Positions 23,923-31,321 of a stretch of 48,529 nt of DNA are shown here, piece by piece. How positions within the stretch are numbered: the stretch's first letter is position 1; each line of letters opens with the position of its first letter. The translations under genes and the position numbers were made by a program. The notes beneath the pieces were generated by a model. It had not been told where the DNA came from and searched no databases. It saw only the letters and a list, made by a program, of their open reading frames with translations. Source of the stretch: Candidatus Izemoplasma sp. (GTDB lineage Bacteria; Bacillota_I; Bacilli_A; Izemoplasmatales; Izemoplasmataceae); the NCBI GenBank assembly GCA_007132465.1, contig SLOP01000023.1, forward strand, positions 1-48,529, in the 5' to 3' direction.

Positions 23923-25650
23923 GTGAAAAAAACTTTCGACACGTGGAAAAACCATCCGAGTTTAGATCCATCGCTTAAAAAAGCCATGGAGACCATGTCG
24001 GAAAGCGACATTGAGGATGCCTTTTATAAACCCCTCGCCTTTGGCACTGGGGGCATGCGTGGCAAAATGGGTCCCGGCACCAATCGGATCAACGTGCACA
24101 CGCTGAGAAAGGCCGCTTACGGCTTCGCTAAATACGTGGTTGAACATGAAACCGATGCCCAGCGTCGTGGCATCGTCATCGCCTACGACAACCGCGAACA
24201 CAGCGATGCTTTTGCATGGGCCGCCGCGGAAGTCATCGCCGCTTTTGGGATGCGAGCGTTCGTGTTTGAACACATGCGGCCAACGCCGCTATTATCGTTT
24301 GCGGTACGGCACCAAGGCGCTGCCGGTGGCATCGTGATTACGGCTTCACACAATCCCCCGGAATATAACGGCTTTAAAATATACGACGCCGACGGGTGTC
24401 AACTGGTGCCGAACCATGCCGATAAGGTGGTCCGAAATGTTGAGGCGGTGGAGGACGTGTTCAAGGTTCCCGCCATGGACATCGATGAAGCGAAAGCAAA
24501 GGGGTTAATCACCGAACTCGGTCGTGATATCGACGAGAGCTACCTCGAGCAAATCGCCACCGTGCCGATACAGCCAGCCGACAAAAAACAATTGACGGTG
24601 GTGTTTACACCGCTCCATGGTGCCAGTCGAGAAATCGGTTTACGCGCCCTCACCGAAGCCGGCTACCACGTGGTGACGGTCGAAGAACAGATGGTCCCTG
24701 ACAGTCAGTTCAAGACCGTTAAAAGCCCGAATCCGGAAGACGAAGCGGCGTTTGAACTAGCCATCAAATACGCCCGAGAGCACCGCGCCGATTTGCTTAT
24801 CGCCACCGATCCCGACGGCGATCGCCTCGGCCTTGGTGTCTTGCATGAAGGCAACTACGAGTTTCTAACCGGCAACCAAACCGGCGCCATCTTCATTGAA
24901 CACATGCTTGAAAGCCATAAACAGGCGGGCACCTTGCCCGACCACGGCATCATATACAACACCATCGTAACCAGCGATTTTGGCGCTGCCATCGCCCGAA
25001 CCTACGGAGTTGATGTGGAATCAACGCTGACGGGCTTCAAGTTCATCGGTGAACGCATGAAAGCCATCGAACAAACCAAGCACACCTTCCTGATGGGGTA
25101 TGAAGAGTCGTATGGTTACATCATCAAGGATTTTGTCCGTGACAAGGACGCCATCCAAGCGATGATCTACGCCGCAGACATTGCCGACCGCTTGAAAAAA
25201 CAAGGAAAAACGTTGATTGACTACCTGCATGAACTTTACGCCAAGTATGGAACCTATCGCGAAAAAAATGTGAACCTCACCTTGGAAGGAAAAGCAGGAG
25301 AAGCACGCATTGAAGCAATCATGGAACATTTCCGCGAGTGGATGCCGACGCGCGTGGCCGGCCACAATCTCATCGTTAAAGAAGATTATTTGCGACGATT
25401 ACGATACGAGCGGGGCGTCGAACACATCATCGATTTGCCCGCCTCAAACGTCATCAAGTTTGCGTTCGATGATGAGGCGTGGTTCGTCTTACGCCCCAGC
25501 GGAACCGAACCAAAACTGAAAATCTACATCGCCGCCAAGGCACCGCGCATCACCGAAGCTGACACCACGCTTAAGGCCCTCGAAGAAGCCATCATGGCCA
25601 TCATTGATGACGTGCCGGAAGCAGACCAACATAAGGAAGTGAAACGATGA
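23923..25650 (+). CDS. Phosphoglucomutase/phosphomannomutase (PgcA-type)
   Basis: 575 residues, close to Bacillus PgcA. It interconverts glucose-1-phosphate and glucose-6-phosphate, joining glycogen turnover to glycolysis. Phosphoserine S142 lies in TASHNPPEYNGFKIYDADG; the metal loop is DPDGDR, the sugar loop GYEESYGY and the phosphate loop RPSGTEPKLKIYI. The start is GTG 23923: GGGAG lies about ten bases upstream, downstream of the promoter, whereas the open frame further upstream (to 23800) runs through the promoter and has no family similarity. The stop overlaps the rnfC ATG (ATGA at 25647-25650), which couples its translation to the Rnf complex, an unusual pairing. Confidence 0.94.
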   Translation: MKKTFDTWKNHPSLDPSLKKAMETMSESDIEDAFYKPLAFGTGGMRGKMGPGTNRINVHTLRKAAYGFAKYVVEHETDAQRRGIVIAYDNREHSDAFAWAAAEVIAAFGMRAFVFEHMRPTPLLSFAVRHQGAAGGIVITASHNPPEYNGFKIYDADGCQLVPNHADKVVRNVEAVEDVFKVPAMDIDEAKAKGLITELGRDIDESYLEQIATVPIQPADKKQLTVVFTPLHGASREIGLRALTEAGYHVVTVEEQMVPDSQFKTVKSPNPEDEAAFELAIKYAREHRADLLIATDPDGDRLGLGVLHEGNYEFLTGNQTGAIFIEHMLESHKQAGTLPDHGIIYNTIVTSDFGAAIARTYGVDVESTLTGFKFIGERMKAIEQTKHTFLMGYEESYGYIIKDFVRDKDAIQAMIYAADIADRLKKQGKTLIDYLHELYAKYGTYREKNVNLTLEGKAGEARIEAIMEHFREWMPTRVAGHNLIVKEDYLRRLRYERGVEHIIDLPASNVIKFAFDDEAWFVLRPSGTEPKLKIYIAAKAPRITEADTTLKALEEAIMAIIDDVPEADQHKEVKR

Positions 25651-26945
25651 TTGCGAAAACACGCAAAGTGAGCGACTACAAACAGCTGAACACCGAACTG
25701 CCGACGGTGCGTTTCGTCGATCCCGAACGGGTGTATTTGAACTTGACGACAAGCCGTTGCAAAGAGTACACCTTGGACGTCAAAGCGGGCGATCACGTCA
25801 AACTCGGCCAAATCATTGGCGAACGCGACGGATGCTTTTTTCGCCAACCCGTCTACGCCACCATCAGCGGCACCGTCGAAGACAAGGTGACGATGATTGA
25901 CTCCACCGGCATCGACGTCGAATGCATCACCATCCGCAACGACTTCAAAGACACCTACCACGAAAGCATCACCGACCGTCCCGACAGCGTGATTGAAAAG
26001 ATGACCCAAGAAGAAATGGTCGAAATCATCAAAGAAAAAGCCGTCGTGGGCTTAGGTGGAAGCGGCTTCCCCTCGTATGTCAAACTGGCAACGGAAGAAA
26101 CGATTCATACGGTGGTCATCAACGCCATCGAATGCGAACCCTATTTGAGCAGCGATTATCGCTTAATCAAAGACCAACCCGATGAGATTTTCCAAGGCCT
26201 CAGCTACATCATGCAAGCCGTTAACGCCAAGCAAGGCATCATCGCCGTCAAAAAAACCAAGACGGAACTGATCGAAGTGCTTGAACGCGAAGCTGAGCGG
26301 TTTAAGCACCTGAACGTGAGCATTGCCAAACTTGGTGATTATTACCCACAAGGGTGGGAAGTTGAAACCTTTAAAAACGCCACCGGCATCAAAGTTCCCT
26401 CAGGTGACTTGCCGATGAAACACGGGTTGCTTGGGTTTAACGTCTCGACCACTGAGAGCATCTACGAAGCGATTAAGCACAACCTCCCAATCACCAAACG
26501 CTACATCACCGTCAACGGCGATGGCGTGAAGTTTCCCCAAAGCATTCGCACACGCGTCGGCACGTCGGTGCGCGAGTTACTCAAGTTGTGTGACGGTTTC
26601 GTTGACGACGCCGACAAACTTGAGTTGGTTATCGGCGGACCGATGATGGGCACCGCTGTCAAGAGCGACAACGTGGTGGTCACACCGACCACAACATCCG
26701 TGTTGGTGTTCCGTCCCATTGAGTATAAAGAAGAACCGTGCGTTCGTTGCGGTTCATGCGTTTATAGCTGCCCCGTTCACATCCAACCGGTGTCCATCAT
26801 GCAAGCGGTCAAACGCAACGACGTTGAGGCCATCAAAGGATTAGAAGCAAACAAGTGCATCGAATGCGGACTGTGTTCCTACGTCTGCACCAGCAAAATT
26901 CCCGTCACCGACTACGTCAAAGACGGCAAAAAGAAGATAGGGTGA
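25647..26945 (+). CDS. rnfC: Rnf complex subunit RnfC
   Basis: 432 residues. RnfC is the peripheral, FMN/NAD-binding subunit of the ferredoxin:NAD+ oxidoreductase (ion pump). The biotinyl-lipoyl-like N-terminal domain (LKAGDHVKLGQIIGE-like, VYATISGTVEDKV), the GLGGSGFPSYVKL glycine-rich nucleotide loop, the SLBB region and two C-terminal [4Fe-4S] motifs are visible: C365, C368, C371, C375 (CVRCGSCVYSCP) and C404, C407, C410, C414 (CIECGLCSYVC). Length matches clostridial RnfC. It is coupled to phosphoglucomutase upstream; rnfD starts 4 bases after its stop. Confidence 0.96.
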   Translation: MIAKTRKVSDYKQLNTELPTVRFVDPERVYLNLTTSRCKEYTLDVKAGDHVKLGQIIGERDGCFFRQPVYATISGTVEDKVTMIDSTGIDVECITIRNDFKDTYHESITDRPDSVIEKMTQEEMVEIIKEKAVVGLGGSGFPSYVKLATEETIHTVVINAIECEPYLSSDYRLIKDQPDEIFQGLSYIMQAVNAKQGIIAVKKTKTELIEVLEREAERFKHLNVSIAKLGDYYPQGWEVETFKNATGIKVPSGDLPMKHGLLGFNVSTTESIYEAIKHNLPITKRYITVNGDGVKFPQSIRTRVGTSVRELLKLCDGFVDDADKLELVIGGPMMGTAVKSDNVVVTPTTTSVLVFRPIEYKEEPCVRCGSCVYSCPVHIQPVSIMQAVKRNDVEAIKGLEANKCIECGLCSYVCTSKIPVTDYVKDGKKKIG

Positions 26946-26949
26946 TACG

Positions 26950-28173
26950 ATGGATTTCATACAAAACACCGCACCACACCTGAGAAAACCCAACGCCTCC
27001 GTCGTGCGCATGATGCGCGATGTGGTGATCGCACTCAGCCCACTCGTGGTGCTCGCCATCATCAACCATGGCCTCAGGGCCGTGTGGATTATGCTCGTCG
27101 CCGTGCTCTCGATGGCGGTGACGGAGTACATCTACTACCAAATCCATGACGCGATCAACCGCAACCGCGAAGGCATGGAAAACCTCTTCGACCAGCTTGC
27201 GAAACTAAAAAAAGCGCTGAAAGAAGCAGAGCAACAAGACCAAAAAGACACGCTGAAAAAGCAGATTGCTGAGATCAAACAGGCAATCAGCGAGAAAAAA
27301 CGCGAGAGCAAACGTGAAGAGAACAAAAGGTTTCACCCCATCAACAAAAACTTCACGCTCTACAACTACAGCATCCTTGTCAGCGGTGTCATCTACGGAC
27401 TCACCATTCCCGACGCGACCCCGCTCGCTATCGTCATCATCGGTGGTGTCGTCGCCGTCATTCTCGTGAAGCTGATCTTCGGTGGCATGGGCCAAAACAT
27501 CTTTAACGTCGCCGCCTTCGGCCGCGCCTTCATCGCCCTTAGCTTCGGCGGCCTCGTCGCCGTGGCCAACCATGTGGACGCGACCTCTAACGCCACCGTC
27601 CTCGGCGAACTCGTCGCCGCCCCGTTTAGCGAAACCGGCTATTCCCTGACGACGATGTTCACCGGCATCGGCTTGCCGGGAACGCTCGGCGAAGTCAGCG
27701 CCATGCTGATTTTGGTCGGCGGGATTTACCTTTTCTTGCGTAAGTCCTTCGACGTCTTTATTCCGCTTGTCTACGTCGGGACCGTTTTCGTCCTCGCCCT
27801 GGCGACGATGCTCGTGACCGACGCTGGCTGGTGGTTTCCCTTGACGCACCTCTTATCGGGTGGGTTGCTGTTTGGTGCCATCTACATGGCCACCGACCCC
27901 ATCACCGCCCCCGTCACCCGACCCGGACGCATCTATTTTGCTTTCGGTTTGGGCTTGATAACGTTTGTCATCCGCCTTTTTGGGGCTTATCCAGAAGGCG
28001 TCGTGTTTGCCATTTTGATTATGAACATCTTCGTTCCGGCGATTGACTTCCCAAAATGGTCGCACACACAATTTAACTGGAGACGCGCCATCATCTTCAC
28101 CGCCGTCGTGTTGCTTTCAATCACGGCTGTGATGATTGGTGCAGAATCCCTGGCAGGTGGTTTGAATGGCTAA
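26950..28173 (+). CDS. rnfD: Rnf complex subunit RnfD with coiled-coil insert
   Basis: 407 residues, longer than usual RnfD (about 310-350). RnfD is an integral membrane flavoprotein of the Rnf pump. About nine hydrophobic segments are visible. Between the second (about 42-64) and third (about 138-160) lies a strongly charged, heptad-like segment, residues 70-128, rich in Lys, Glu and Gln, which accounts for the extra length. The covalent FMN threonine site, normally D-x-x-S-G-A-T, reads DATSNAT (210-216), so the Gly is Asn while the acceptor Thr is kept. The conserved FGGMGQNIFNVAAFGRAF is intact. The 3' end overlaps rnfG by 8 bases. Confidence 0.94.
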   Translation: MDFIQNTAPHLRKPNASVVRMMRDVVIALSPLVVLAIINHGLRAVWIMLVAVLSMAVTEYIYYQIHDAINRNREGMENLFDQLAKLKKALKEAEQQDQKDTLKKQIAEIKQAISEKKRESKREENKRFHPINKNFTLYNYSILVSGVIYGLTIPDATPLAIVIIGGVVAVILVKLIFGGMGQNIFNVAAFGRAFIALSFGGLVAVANHVDATSNATVLGELVAAPFSETGYSLTTMFTGIGLPGTLGEVSAMLILVGGIYLFLRKSFDVFIPLVYVGTVFVLALATMLVTDAGWWFPLTHLLSGGLLFGAIYMATDPITAPVTRPGRIYFAFGLGLITFVIRLFGAYPEGVVFAILIMNIFVPAIDFPKWSHTQFNWRRAIIFTAVVLLSITAVMIGAESLAGGLNG

Positions 28174-29479
28174 TTTATTAGAAAAAATGAAAGTTGCTGC
28201 GGTGTTGTTGATTATCGGTGCCGTCAGCGGCCTTGCCATCTTCGGCACACACACGTTGACCGAAGAACGACGTGAAGAAAACCGTCGGATGGCACAACTG
28301 GCGATTTACCTCGAGATGTTCGATGGCGCCGTCGCCCCGGACGATGACGATATCGTAGCCATCGCCGACAGCAGCGTCAAAGAAATGGTCACCATGCGTG
28401 ATGGCAGCGGAAACATCCTCGGCTATGCTTTCCGCGGTGAAGGGCGCATCAGCCACGGCGACATCACGGTGATTGTCGGCATCGACTTAGACGGCACCAT
28501 CGTCGATGTCAAAATCGCCGATTCGACGCAAACGCCTTCCTATGTTCAATCGGTCCGAGACCATTACTTGCCGAAACTCATCGACCAACCAATCGTCGCC
28601 ATGAATTACGATTTCACGAGTGAAATCGCTGGCACCAGCGCATCCGCTGGCATGACGTTTGGCAACGTACGCCGCATCATTGAAGACGCTCGGTTCATTG
28701 CCGGTGATTTCCTTAGCGATCCTATCATGGATGCCTATGAGAGCCTAGTGCCCGACGTCGTTTCCTTTGAAACCTTTGTTGTCTTCGACCGCGCCTTCAA
28801 AGAAGAGCTGCTCGTCAAGGACGACGACGAAAACACGCTTGCTTACGCATACTTAATGGACCTCGATATTGACGGTGAAACGGTAACCTACGTCGCCGCG
28901 TACGACGAAACAGAATTTATCGGCATCACAGTCTTTGCGTTCGATGATGTTCCTCAAGACGCGATTGACGCCGTGTGGGCATTTGAAGGCTACTGGAACA
29001 GCGACTTTAACGGCTTGACTTTCGACGTCGACGGCGAGATTGAAAACACCATTGCCGCGGCGCTTACCGAACTCAACACCTTCGTTGAAAACCGCACTTG
29101 GATTAATGCCAACACCCTCGATTACGTCGAAACGCTTTACGACGGAGACACCGTCACAGGATACATGTTCATCGGCCGTAGTCAAGGGCTTATGAGCATT
29201 AACGTGCTCGAAGTTTATCTGGATGAAACAGGCGCTTTCCAAGGATTCACCTATAATCAAAGCGGCGATAGCCTTAACTGGCGAACCCCCTTGATTGAGC
29301 GTTTCGGTGCATATGAGGGACAGACAGAGATTTCGCAAAGCGAAGCTGAAGCGGCTTGGGATGATGTTAACCCGAATGCCCCCGACGGAGAAACGAGTGC
29401 AACAGGCACCGGCCAATCGGTGTATGCCGTCATCAGCGCGGCCTTAGACTACTACAGCGACACGTTAGGAGATGAGTGA
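28166..29479 (+). CDS. rnfG: Rnf complex subunit RnfG, double length with repeated FMN-binding-like domains
   Basis: 437 residues, about twice the usual RnfG (180-210). An N-terminal transmembrane anchor (about 9-27) precedes an extracytoplasmic part. Residues about 75-185 are a normal FMN_bind domain whose flavinylation motif reads SASAGMT (158-164) in place of SGAT. Residues about 315-435 look like another such domain (TVTGYMFIGRSQG, EVYLDETGAFQGF) ending in DGETSAT (407-413), again a SGAT-like site. The stretch 215-300 (LAYAYLMDLDIDGETVTY) may be a third, decayed copy. AGGTGG before the ATG supports the start; both ends overlap neighbours by 8 to 9 bases. Identity is clear from the position in the rnf operon; the repeat count is my reading. 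Confidence 0.85.
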   Translation: MANLLEKMKVAAVLLIIGAVSGLAIFGTHTLTEERREENRRMAQLAIYLEMFDGAVAPDDDDIVAIADSSVKEMVTMRDGSGNILGYAFRGEGRISHGDITVIVGIDLDGTIVDVKIADSTQTPSYVQSVRDHYLPKLIDQPIVAMNYDFTSEIAGTSASAGMTFGNVRRIIEDARFIAGDFLSDPIMDAYESLVPDVVSFETFVVFDRAFKEELLVKDDDENTLAYAYLMDLDIDGETVTYVAAYDETEFIGITVFAFDDVPQDAIDAVWAFEGYWNSDFNGLTFDVDGEIENTIAAALTELNTFVENRTWINANTLDYVETLYDGDTVTGYMFIGRSQGLMSINVLEVYLDETGAFQGFTYNQSGDSLNWRTPLIERFGAYEGQTEISQSEAEAAWDDVNPNAPDGETSATGTGQSVYAVISAALDYYSDTLGDE

Positions 29480-29480
29480 C

Positions 29481-30242
29481 GTGGCTAAAACCAAGAACAT
29501 GAAAAAAGAAATGTCCCGTTTGGCGAACTTAACCAAAGGCTTCTTCAAAGAAAACCCCGTCTTTGTCTTCTTACTTGGGCTCTGTCCAGCGCTTGCCGTC
29601 ACCGGCACGGTTGAAGCCTCACTCGGCATGGGACTCCTCGTCATCTTTGTGTTGACCGGATCAAACGTGGTTGTTTCACTGATTCGTAAATGGATTCCTC
29701 ATCAAATCCGTGTGCCATCATACATCGTCATCATTTCGACCTTTGTCACCATCGTCGGTTTACTCACCGAAGCGTATGCCTACGCGCTCCATGGCGAACT
29801 CGGCATCTTCATCCCGCTGATTGTCGTCAACTGCTTGATTCTTGGCCGCGCCGAAAGCTACGCCTCGAAAAACAAGGTGCACGACGCCGCCATCGACGGC
29901 TTCGGCATGGGCCTTGGATTCCTCGGTGCGCTGGTGGTCATCGGCTTTTTCCGGGAGTTCTTATCAACCGGCGCCATCGCTTACGGTGTGTTCTTGCCGC
30001 TGGCTGAAACCCCCGGTTCCATCATCAACATCGATAGCTACGTCTTCAGCATGGACGCCTTCGGTCAAGCACCGGGTGGCTTCCTCGTCATCGGATTGTT
30101 GCTCGGAATCTTCAACTTCGTCGCCATCCTTAAACGCAACAAAAAAGAACGTGAACGTCAACGCATGATTGAAGAGAAAAAACGTCAAGCGCTTGAACGC
30201 AAGCGTCAAAAAGCCCAAGAAAAGGCAGGTGCTAAGGCATGA
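29481..30242 (+). CDS. rnfE: Rnf complex subunit RnfE
   Basis: 253 residues from GTG 29481. RnfE is one of the two paired membrane subunits (with RnfA) that hold the central FeS site of Rnf. The hallmark LGLCPALAVTGTVEASLGMGL with its cysteine and the VNCLILGRAESYASKN half are present, with six membrane segments. GTG 29481 is preferred because AGGAG (29467-29471) is 9 bases before it, while the in-frame ATG at 29472 directly abuts that site. Residues about 220-253 form a long basic, helical tail (KKERERQRMIEEKKRQALER) not usual in RnfE. The stop overlaps rnfA by 4 bases. Confidence 0.94.
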   Translation: MAKTKNMKKEMSRLANLTKGFFKENPVFVFLLGLCPALAVTGTVEASLGMGLLVIFVLTGSNVVVSLIRKWIPHQIRVPSYIVIISTFVTIVGLLTEAYAYALHGELGIFIPLIVVNCLILGRAESYASKNKVHDAAIDGFGMGLGFLGALVVIGFFREFLSTGAIAYGVFLPLAETPGSIINIDSYVFSMDAFGQAPGGFLVIGLLLGIFNFVAILKRNKKERERQRMIEEKKRQALERKRQKAQEKAGAKA

Positions 30243-30847
30243 GCTGGACAGTCTTCTTTGTCGCCATCTTCTCATCGATGCTGATCAATAACGTCGTGCT
30301 GATGAAGTTTTTGGGTGTATGCCCCTTCCTCGGCGTCAGCAAAAAAACCGGTTCCGCGCTCGGCATGAGCGCCGCGGTCATGTTCGTCATGGTCATTGCC
30401 GCGTTTGTATCATACTTGCTTTATTACCTCGTGCTCGTGCCGCTTGAAATCGAGTTCGTGCAAACCATTTCCTTCATCTTAATCATCGCCTCGCTCGTGC
30501 AACTCGTTGAGATGATTATCAAAAAAATCAGCAAGAAACTCTACAAATCCCTCGGCGTCTACATCGCGCTCATCACCACCAACTGCGCGATTCTCGGGAT
30601 TGCCGTGGAAAACATCACCCGCGATTTTGCGGGCCAATACGGCCTCTTCCCAGGCCTTGCGGTCGCGGTCACCACGGCCTTTGGCGCAGCGCTTGGTTTT
30701 GGCCTTGTGATGTTCGCCTTCTCGACCATTCGTGAACGCCTTGAAGGCGCGAACGTCCCAGAAGCCTGGAAAGGCGTCCCCGTCTCGCTCATTACCGCCG
30801 GCATCATGGCCCTTGCGTTTGCCGGCCTTGGAGGCATCGTTGGATGA
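30239..30847 (+). CDS. rnfA: Rnf complex subunit RnfA
   Basis: 202 residues with six membrane segments. The paired-subunit signatures are NNVVLMKFLGVCPFLGVS and TTNCAILGIAVENI, each with the cysteine thought to ligate the intramembrane FeS cluster shared with RnfE. Length and sequence are ordinary for the family. It is coupled to rnfE (ATGA, 30239-30242) and its own TGA overlaps the ATG of the small Cys protein that follows. Confidence 0.96.
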   Translation: MSWTVFFVAIFSSMLINNVVLMKFLGVCPFLGVSKKTGSALGMSAAVMFVMVIAAFVSYLLYYLVLVPLEIEFVQTISFILIIASLVQLVEMIIKKISKKLYKSLGVYIALITTNCAILGIAVENITRDFAGQYGLFPGLAVAVTTAFGAALGFGLVMFAFSTIRERLEGANVPEAWKGVPVSLITAGIMALAFAGLGGIVG

Positions 30848-31014
30848 TGCCTGCTGTGATATTCGTCACCGTCATGGTGGTGCTCTTCTTAGGCACCTTC
30901 ATGCTCAACAAAAACACCCCCGCGCCCGTTGATTACAAGATCAGCGCCGCACGCTGCAGCGCTTGTTCACACTACGGCTGCGCGCTAAAACAAGAAGAAG
31001 CGGAGGAAAGCTAA
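30844..31014 (+). CDS. 56-residue membrane-anchored Cys-motif protein between rnfA and rnfB
   Basis: A short frame, MMPAVIFVTVMVVLFLGTFM then a polar part with RCSACSHYGC. One hydrophobic segment (about 3-20) is followed by three cysteines C38, C41 and C46, spaced C-x2-C-x4-C. That is exactly the spacing of the FeS motif in the neighbouring short RnfB (CGACSYPGC), but the fourth ligand is absent. GGAGG (30830-30834) lies 9 bases before the ATG, the start overlaps the rnfA stop and the rnfB ATG comes two bases after its TAA, so it is almost certainly translated as part of the operon. It could be a decayed RnfB duplicate, an accessory FeS protein, or a member of the small FeoB-associated Cys-rich membrane type. 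I do not know a characterised homologue. Confidence 0.7.
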   Translation: MMPAVIFVTVMVVLFLGTFMLNKNTPAPVDYKISAARCSACSHYGCALKQEEAEES

Positions 31015-31015
31015 C

Positions 31016-31321
31016 ATGTGGGCAGTATTCGTACTTGCGTTGATGGGTGGCTTGCTTGGGCTTGGCCTCGCGTATGCCGCCGACCTCTTGAAAGTGGAAG
31101 CCGACCCGCGCATCGAAGGCGTCAGAGAACGCCTTCCCGGCTACGATTGTGGCGCGTGCAGTTATCCAGGGTGCTCAGCCTTTGCCGAAGCGATCGTGGA
31201 AGGCGACGTCAAAGACTTAAAGCTGTGTAAACCCGGAAACAACACTCATTACGACGCCATCGTCGATTACCTTAACGACAACCGCAACCCTGATGGCAGC
31301 AAAATCACCGTCAAAAAATAA
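31016..31321 (+). CDS. rnfB: Minimal RnfB: membrane anchor plus single FeS domain, ferredoxin domains missing
   Basis: 101 residues. The hydrophobic N-terminus (about 2-22) and the Fe4S domain with C45, C48, C53 and C71 (PGYDCGACSYPGC ... KLC) match the first 75 residues or so of RnfB. Normal RnfB then carries two or more ferredoxin-type [4Fe-4S] clusters (190 to over 300 residues); here the protein stops at residue 101 and a terminator follows at once, with no ferredoxin motif in any frame before ppdK. GGAGG (31002-31006) sits 9 bases before the ATG. The gene ends the operon, the usual place of rnfB. No frameshift is apparent, so the short form looks genuine. Confidence 0.85.
   Translation: MWAVFVLALMGGLLGLGLAYAADLLKVEADPRIEGVRERLPGYDCGACSYPGCSAFAEAIVEGDVKDLKLCKPGNNTHYDAIVDYLNDNRNPDGSKITVKK

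Follow-up and report, generated by a model that had tools for sequence, protein, structure and literature searches.

An RnfG with three tandem FMN_bind folds and altered flavin-attachment motifs in Candidatus Izemoplasma

How an RnfG of 437 residues is built, and how many flavins it may carry, is the question raised by a locus of Candidatus Izemoplasma sp. The stretch of DNA that was analysed (48,529 nucleotides, referred to as the window) lies on contig 38 of a 1.43-Mb genome that is 99% complete. It contains a complete rnfCDGEAB operon at positions 25647–31321, with all genes on the forward strand. The rnfC gene (25647–26945) encodes 432 residues (TIGR01945, 350.8 bits; Complex1_51K, RnfC_N, SLBB and Fer4 domains) and rnfD (26950–28173) encodes 407 residues (TIGR01946, 219.2 bits; PF03116, 1.1e-80). 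The rnfG gene (28166–29479) is followed by rnfE (29472–30242, 256 residues; TIGR01948 and NF009070), rnfA (30239–30847, 202 residues; TIGR01943, 225.2 bits) and rnfB (31016–31321, 101 residues; PF04060, 1.9e-13). The rnfG reading frame, located between rnfD and rnfE, is open over 437 codons with no internal stop. The nearest relative by RnfC (94% identical) is Candidatus Izimaplasma bacterium CSSed162cmB_71 (L075, the same genome as G002), referred to as the sister, and its RnfG has 426 residues and is 81% identical. As the length class recurs in this independent MAG, together with an altered motif in the first domain (see below), the long RnfG is not an assembly artefact, and the 437-residue protein reported by a first-pass annotation is real.

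Two other subunits deviate in length. RnfB consists of a membrane helix and the proximal FeS domain only, and Pfam detected no ferredoxin dicluster domain in the window protein. An RnfB of this kind, with ~100–110 residues and without the dicluster domains, is encoded in nearly all of the mollicute Rnf operons that were examined. A truncation of RnfB as partner of the RnfG enlargement was discarded, since species with a short RnfG also have an RnfB of ~100–110 residues. The window RnfD contains a charged, coiled-coil-like insertion of ~55 residues (residues ~66–125), which is confined to part of the clade with long RnfGs (RnfD of 407–420 residues versus ~350–360).

The gene is assigned as rnfG by operon position, fold and orthology, with the flavin anchor of its first domain marked as altered. 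The score against the RnfG model TIGR01947 is only 30.6 bits, below the curated cut-off of 102. The solved RnfG 7zc6_G was nevertheless matched in a profile search at 1.2e-11 over window residues 8–172, and the arrangement of a single N-terminal membrane helix ahead of an FMN_bind fold was found by profile, AlphaFold and Foldseek, the best Foldseek matches of the model being RnfG chains. The membrane and linker helix comprises residues 2–51 (28169–28318) according to the AlphaFold secondary structure and the 7zc6_G profile alignment.

The remainder consists of three tandem FMN_bind folds: D1, the canonical RnfG domain (residues ~63–182; 28352–28711), D2 (~200–308; 28763–29089) and the C-terminal D3 (~310–434; 29093–29467). 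The Pfam model PF04205 detects a single partial domain in the window protein (residues 97–135, half of D1). This reflects a limit of sensitivity, since PF04205 yields two or three matches per protein in nine relatives with orthologous long RnfGs, and a domain count from Pfam alone, which misses domains revealed by relatives' profiles and models, was abandoned. A profile built from the short RnfGs of Izemoplasmataceae recognizes D1, D3 and, more weakly, D2 (in several of them at ~1e-4 to 1e-7) in the long relatives, with values up to 4e-32 for D3 of L013 and 3e-28 for a fourth domain in L009. On the window protein it matches D1 at 1e-41 and the D3 stretch at 0.001, so that D2 and D3 are weakly supported by this profile. 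A second profile, made from the D3 domains of the long-RnfG clade itself, gave 62.7 bits for the window D3 and 97.0 bits for that of the sister. In a PDB profile search, D1 matched solved RnfGs, and D3 matched 8p2b (profile positions 325–407). AlphaFold models of the window RnfG and of L076 (mean pLDDT 88.7 and 89.3) both show three successive repeats with the same order of strands and helices. More than one FMN_bind domain is thus found by the clade profiles, by Pfam in relatives and by AlphaFold, whereas Pfam applied to the window RnfG itself shows a single one. The first-pass annotation had described a double-length RnfG with repeated domains and a possible decayed middle copy. The repeats are confirmed but number three, and the middle copy exists and has no anchor but is predicted to have a complete rather than a decayed fold. 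Nor is the rest of the protein unrelated to a single FMN_bind domain, which would have spoken against that description.

The long form was then placed among relatives. The named relatives of the window RnfC are Candidatus Izimaplasma/Izemoplasma MAGs, and in the RnfC tree the Izemoplasmataceae with long RnfGs form one clade (SH-aLRT 99), those with short RnfGs another (98). In the lineages that are sister to the long-RnfG clade, RnfG has its normal length of about 175–211 residues. Because these normal-RnfG relatives sit in a separate clade, the three-domain RnfG is an inherited form, neither the local fusion error that had been considered nor a private oddity. In one relative D3 is very close to D1 and another has gained a fourth domain, with intact motifs in both. 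The names of the MAGs with long RnfGs (CSSed, CSBr, T1Sed, T3Sed, B1Sed, DLM2) may point to soda-lake sediments.

Separate enlargements occurred elsewhere: RnfGs of 315–326 residues with two domains in Acholeplasma relatives, and in Anaeroplasmataceae/Acholeplasmatales RnfGs of 610 residues with four domains and of 1424–1555 residues with eight to ten detected. The latter giant RnfGs, with FMN_bind-like domains, are encoded in rnf operons of rumen/gut Acholeplasmatales-type MAGs (L119, L128, L143, L154). An apparent absence of the attachment motif from Acholeplasma/Anaeroplasma RnfGs was a pattern artefact, as D-x-x-C-G-A-T is present. Several short-RnfG Izemoplasmataceae (L067, L068, L069, L070, L074) have a second rnf cluster, with an RnfG of 493–633 residues where read and an RnfD without a GAT motif at the aligned position.

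Covalent attachment of FMN by ApbE involves the motif D-x-x-[S/T]-G-A-[S/T], in which Ser can also be the acceptor; Thr-to-Ala exchange abolishes flavinylation, Gly-to-Ala approximately halves it and Asp-to-Ala has minor effects (reviewed in PMC12052999). The strict form D-x-x-x-G-A-[ST] is missing from D1 of the window RnfG and of the sister. It is present in the other Izemoplasmataceae compared except G011, a short RnfG with DDVTSAT: D1 has [TSV]-G-A-T in every other long RnfG compared, and the short family members have G-A-[ST]. Motif counts from the 33-row D1 profile are not evidence, as its members were picked by the GA[ST] pattern.

In the window and the sister, D1 contains an insertion and reads AGTSASAGM[TS]F. 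The motif region TSASAGMT (residues 157–164; 28634–28657) is noncanonical and adjoins a 7-residue insertion. The first-pass annotation had correctly read SAGMT at 160–164 but had taken T164 as the anchor; this residue aligns with the conserved Thr two positions after the acceptor and lies inside a predicted helix, and was ruled out. Two registers can be drawn. The profile treats the 7 residues as one insertion and, with low posterior, aligns Gly162 with the acceptor; if the insertion is split 5+2, the motif reads T-S-A-S, the acceptor is S160 and T164 becomes the +2 Thr. In C. tetanomorphum RnfG, Thr164 opens helix 164–188 (PMC9588780). Likewise, AlphaFold models the last helix of L076 D1, L076 D3 and the window D3 as beginning right at the acceptor Thr (T167, T424 and T413, respectively). 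In the window D1 it begins at residue 159, with S158 and S160 nearest (local pLDDT ~70), which makes these the candidate acceptors. The D1 anchor is either lost or moved to S158/S160.

No attachment motif was found in D2 of any long RnfG compared. In D3 the motif DGETSAT (residues 407–413; 29384–29404) occurs exactly as first annotated. T413 (29402–29404), the predicted acceptor, is a good anchor candidate judging from motif and model, so that the second of the two proposed sites is plausible. An 11-residue insertion upstream of this motif is absent from the sister, whose D3 motif is DAWSGAT, and the window D3 has no pocket ‘TP’, which several relatives retain. Among the relatives compared, every complete D3 has Ser or Thr at the acceptor position while Gly and Ala vary, giving SGVT, AGGT, SEAT, ASAT and SSAT. 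A general invariance of the motif Gly outside the window species and the sister was dropped, given these D3 motifs (ASAT, SSAT, SEAT) and TSAT in the G011 RnfG; it is limited to the Izemoplasmataceae RnfDs and to the small proteins, of which few were compared.

The extra domains might be purely structural, providing stability, shielding or protein contacts and carrying no electrons. The anchorless D2, the degenerate SGVT, AGGT and SEAT motifs in D3 and the very acidic composition of the window RnfG (D+E 18%, K+R 5%) are in line with this. However, a short RnfG (HR2) is about as acidic (17% D+E), the acceptor residue is kept in a motif-like sequence in every complete D3, and newly duplicated-looking copies have perfect motifs. 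Retention of Ser/Thr and intact motifs in new-looking copies are what one would predict for an anchored D3 that serves a purpose, and we consider the structural explanation unlikely.

Comparison with the sister revealed strong purifying selection. The dN/dS values, which are rough as dS is near saturation in places, are 0.061 for D1 (residues 41–185), 0.079 for D2, 0.172 for D3 and 0.054 for RnfD; the other Rnf genes are likewise strongly constrained. With the tightest constraint of the soluble domains, D1 is not dead: its motif region (residues 146–176) has a value of 0.037 and hardly differs between the two species. Within the window RnfG, constraint is weakest in D3 (range 0.17–0.29). Weak constraint, the insertion, the Gly-to-Ser change in the motif and the missing pocket ‘TP’ suggest that the window D3 may be decaying.

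These values bear on the distribution of work between the domains. In Rnf, RnfG accepts electrons from RnfA/E and passes them to RnfD (PMC12174285), and apo-NqrC lacking the covalent bond binds FMN very weakly (PMC4348036). Because of this weak binding, a true loss of the D1 anchor would break the core route unless D3 takes over. D3 would then do the canonical job, swinging between RnfA/E and RnfD, as might be read from the profile alignment of Gly162 with the acceptor and from the perfect DAWSGAT of the sister. We regard such a takeover as highly doubtful: D1 and its motif segment are the best conserved and D3 the least, and the D1 anchor is kept in all other long-RnfG species compared.

Motif changes are not restricted to RnfG. 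RnfD reads DATSNAT (27577–27597), with Thr216 kept and Gly replaced by Asn; the replacement (SNAT) is common to the window genome and the sister, while the other Izemoplasmataceae RnfDs compared have Gly. Three FMN_bind proteins were found in the window genome: RnfG, an NqrC-like protein and a small protein unlinked to rnf. The small protein has SEAT in the window genome and the sister, compared with SGAT in G001, G003, G004, G007 and G022 and SGGT in G021. It is 131 residues long with the motif DAISEAT and is encoded on contig 5 of the window genome (G000; L036:5647-7687), near a DUF1576 protein. NqrC retains the usual motif, DAITGGT. NqrB/C/D/E-like genes are located on contig 14 (L035:5873-9822) together with a gene for an NqrF-like protein with Fer2, FAD_binding_6 and NAD_binding_1 domains; the NqrB-like protein of this second system has no GAT at the position aligned with the RnfD motif.

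An apbE gene, for which a search had been suggested, is present. The sole ApbE of the genome (143.7 bits) has kept the Ser, His and Asp residues that align with the reported triad. Compared with 15 relatives, it has changes in loops that are conserved elsewhere: TSGDY is changed to TSSGF, NAG[ST]SN to DAGGSS, and GD...T (GD..ST) to VDLHKS. In the alignments shown, solved ApbEs do not have these loop changes either. No apbE was found in the 87%-complete MAG of the sister. The gene is located on contig 1 (L037:5261-6577, reverse strand), beside PF07456 (Hpre_diP_synt_I) and RnfC/NqrA-like Fer4 proteins.

The sequences allow three readings: a drifted recognition motif, a flavinylation system that is eroding, or ordinary ApbEs that accept such variants anyway; the last would fit G011, where a TSAT RnfG occurs together with an ordinary-looking ApbE. 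As single Gly replacements are sporadic in relatives, the changes are a weak hint at a shifted or eroding flavinylation code. According to a changed code, the ApbE with altered loops would attach FMN at [ST]-[S/N/E]-A-[ST] instead of [ST]-G-A-[ST] (SNAT in RnfD, SEAT in the small protein, TSAT in D3, perhaps TSAS in D1), with D3 of RnfG serving as an extra electron outlet; we think this combination quite improbable. Erosion in this lineage would mean that ApbE and its substrates degrade together and that the flavins of the enlarged RnfG are gradually being lost; the changed motifs in D1, D3, RnfD and the small protein and the odd TSSGF and VDLHKS residues of the only ApbE could be cited in its favour. 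It appears distinctly unlikely in view of the purifying selection on D1, RnfD and the other Rnf genes, the acceptor Thr retained in RnfD, D3 and the small protein, the usual motif of NqrC, and the conserved Ser, His, Asp and score of ApbE. Moreover, the Gly-to-Ser change occurs in G011 without an unusual ApbE.

The best explanation as a whole, to which we give an even chance, is an enlarged RnfG of a complete Rnf complex with duplicated domains, in which an anchored D3 acts as an extra relay. The enlargement would go back to tandem duplication of the FMN_bind domain that RnfG already had outside the membrane. By homology, D1, the orthologue of ordinary RnfG, would transfer electrons from the membrane Fe–S centre of RnfA/RnfE to the FMN of RnfD, its anchor having probably shifted to S160 or S158 in the window lineage. 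D2 would be an old copy with retained fold and no anchor, probably a spacer. D3, with its ApbE-type anchor (T413; SGAT in the sister), most likely carries a second covalent FMN, which may act as an electron relay or store outside the membrane. The most economical purpose of this flavin would be exchange with a second acceptor. The extra-flavin reading proposed initially is supported in part, by the additional extracytoplasmic domains, the intact operon, the apbE gene and the plausible anchor at T413, and loses T164 as its first site.

No outside acceptor was identified in the genome, where neither a further multi-domain FMN_bind protein nor a PplA-like multi-FMN lipoprotein was found. The sole full-length FAD_binding_2 protein was rejected for this role, as its N-terminus has no signal peptide; we take it to resemble a cytoplasmic enzyme of the L-aspartate-oxidase type. 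Electrons may leave Rnf via the extra flavin, as has already been hypothesized for multi-flavinylated RnfGs. We know of no test to date of this electron outlet, proposed in 2021. The Izemoplasmataceae, wall-less bacteria with small genomes, offer a natural comparison among close relatives whose RnfGs have one, three or four domains, some anchored and some not. The loss of Gly in several substrates of one lineage whose ApbE has also changed could serve as a natural experiment on the joint change of a protein-modifying enzyme and its recognition sequence.

Comparison with known systems delimits what is new. The window RnfG resembles canonical RnfGs (C. tetanomorphum 7zc6_G, A. woodii 9eri_G, A. 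vinelandii 8rb9_G) in membrane helix, D1 fold and operon position; these have one domain, ~190–240 residues and one anchored FMN, as opposed to three domains and 437 residues. The match of the D3 profile to 8p2b, a crystallized domain of a proven multi-flavinylated protein (CbFMN4), links it to proteins with tandem FMN_bind domains. CbFMN4-type proteins are not Rnf subunits, and their domains are >80% identical and each flavinylated, whereas those of the window RnfG have diverged strongly and include one that lacks an anchor. Also close are the multi-flavinylated RnfGs for which a second electron route to extracytosolic acceptors was proposed (Meheust et al., 2021, eLife, PMC8238504). According to the passages of that paper on these proteins, which mention neither Izemoplasma nor motif changes, they are likewise encoded in rnf clusters and have more than one FMN_bind domain; the window RnfG differs in its anchorless middle copy and the noncanonical anchor of D1. 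The enlarged RnfG and the idea of an outside acceptor are therefore already published; what is added here is the alteration of the usual flavin-attachment sequences in several proteins of one cell.
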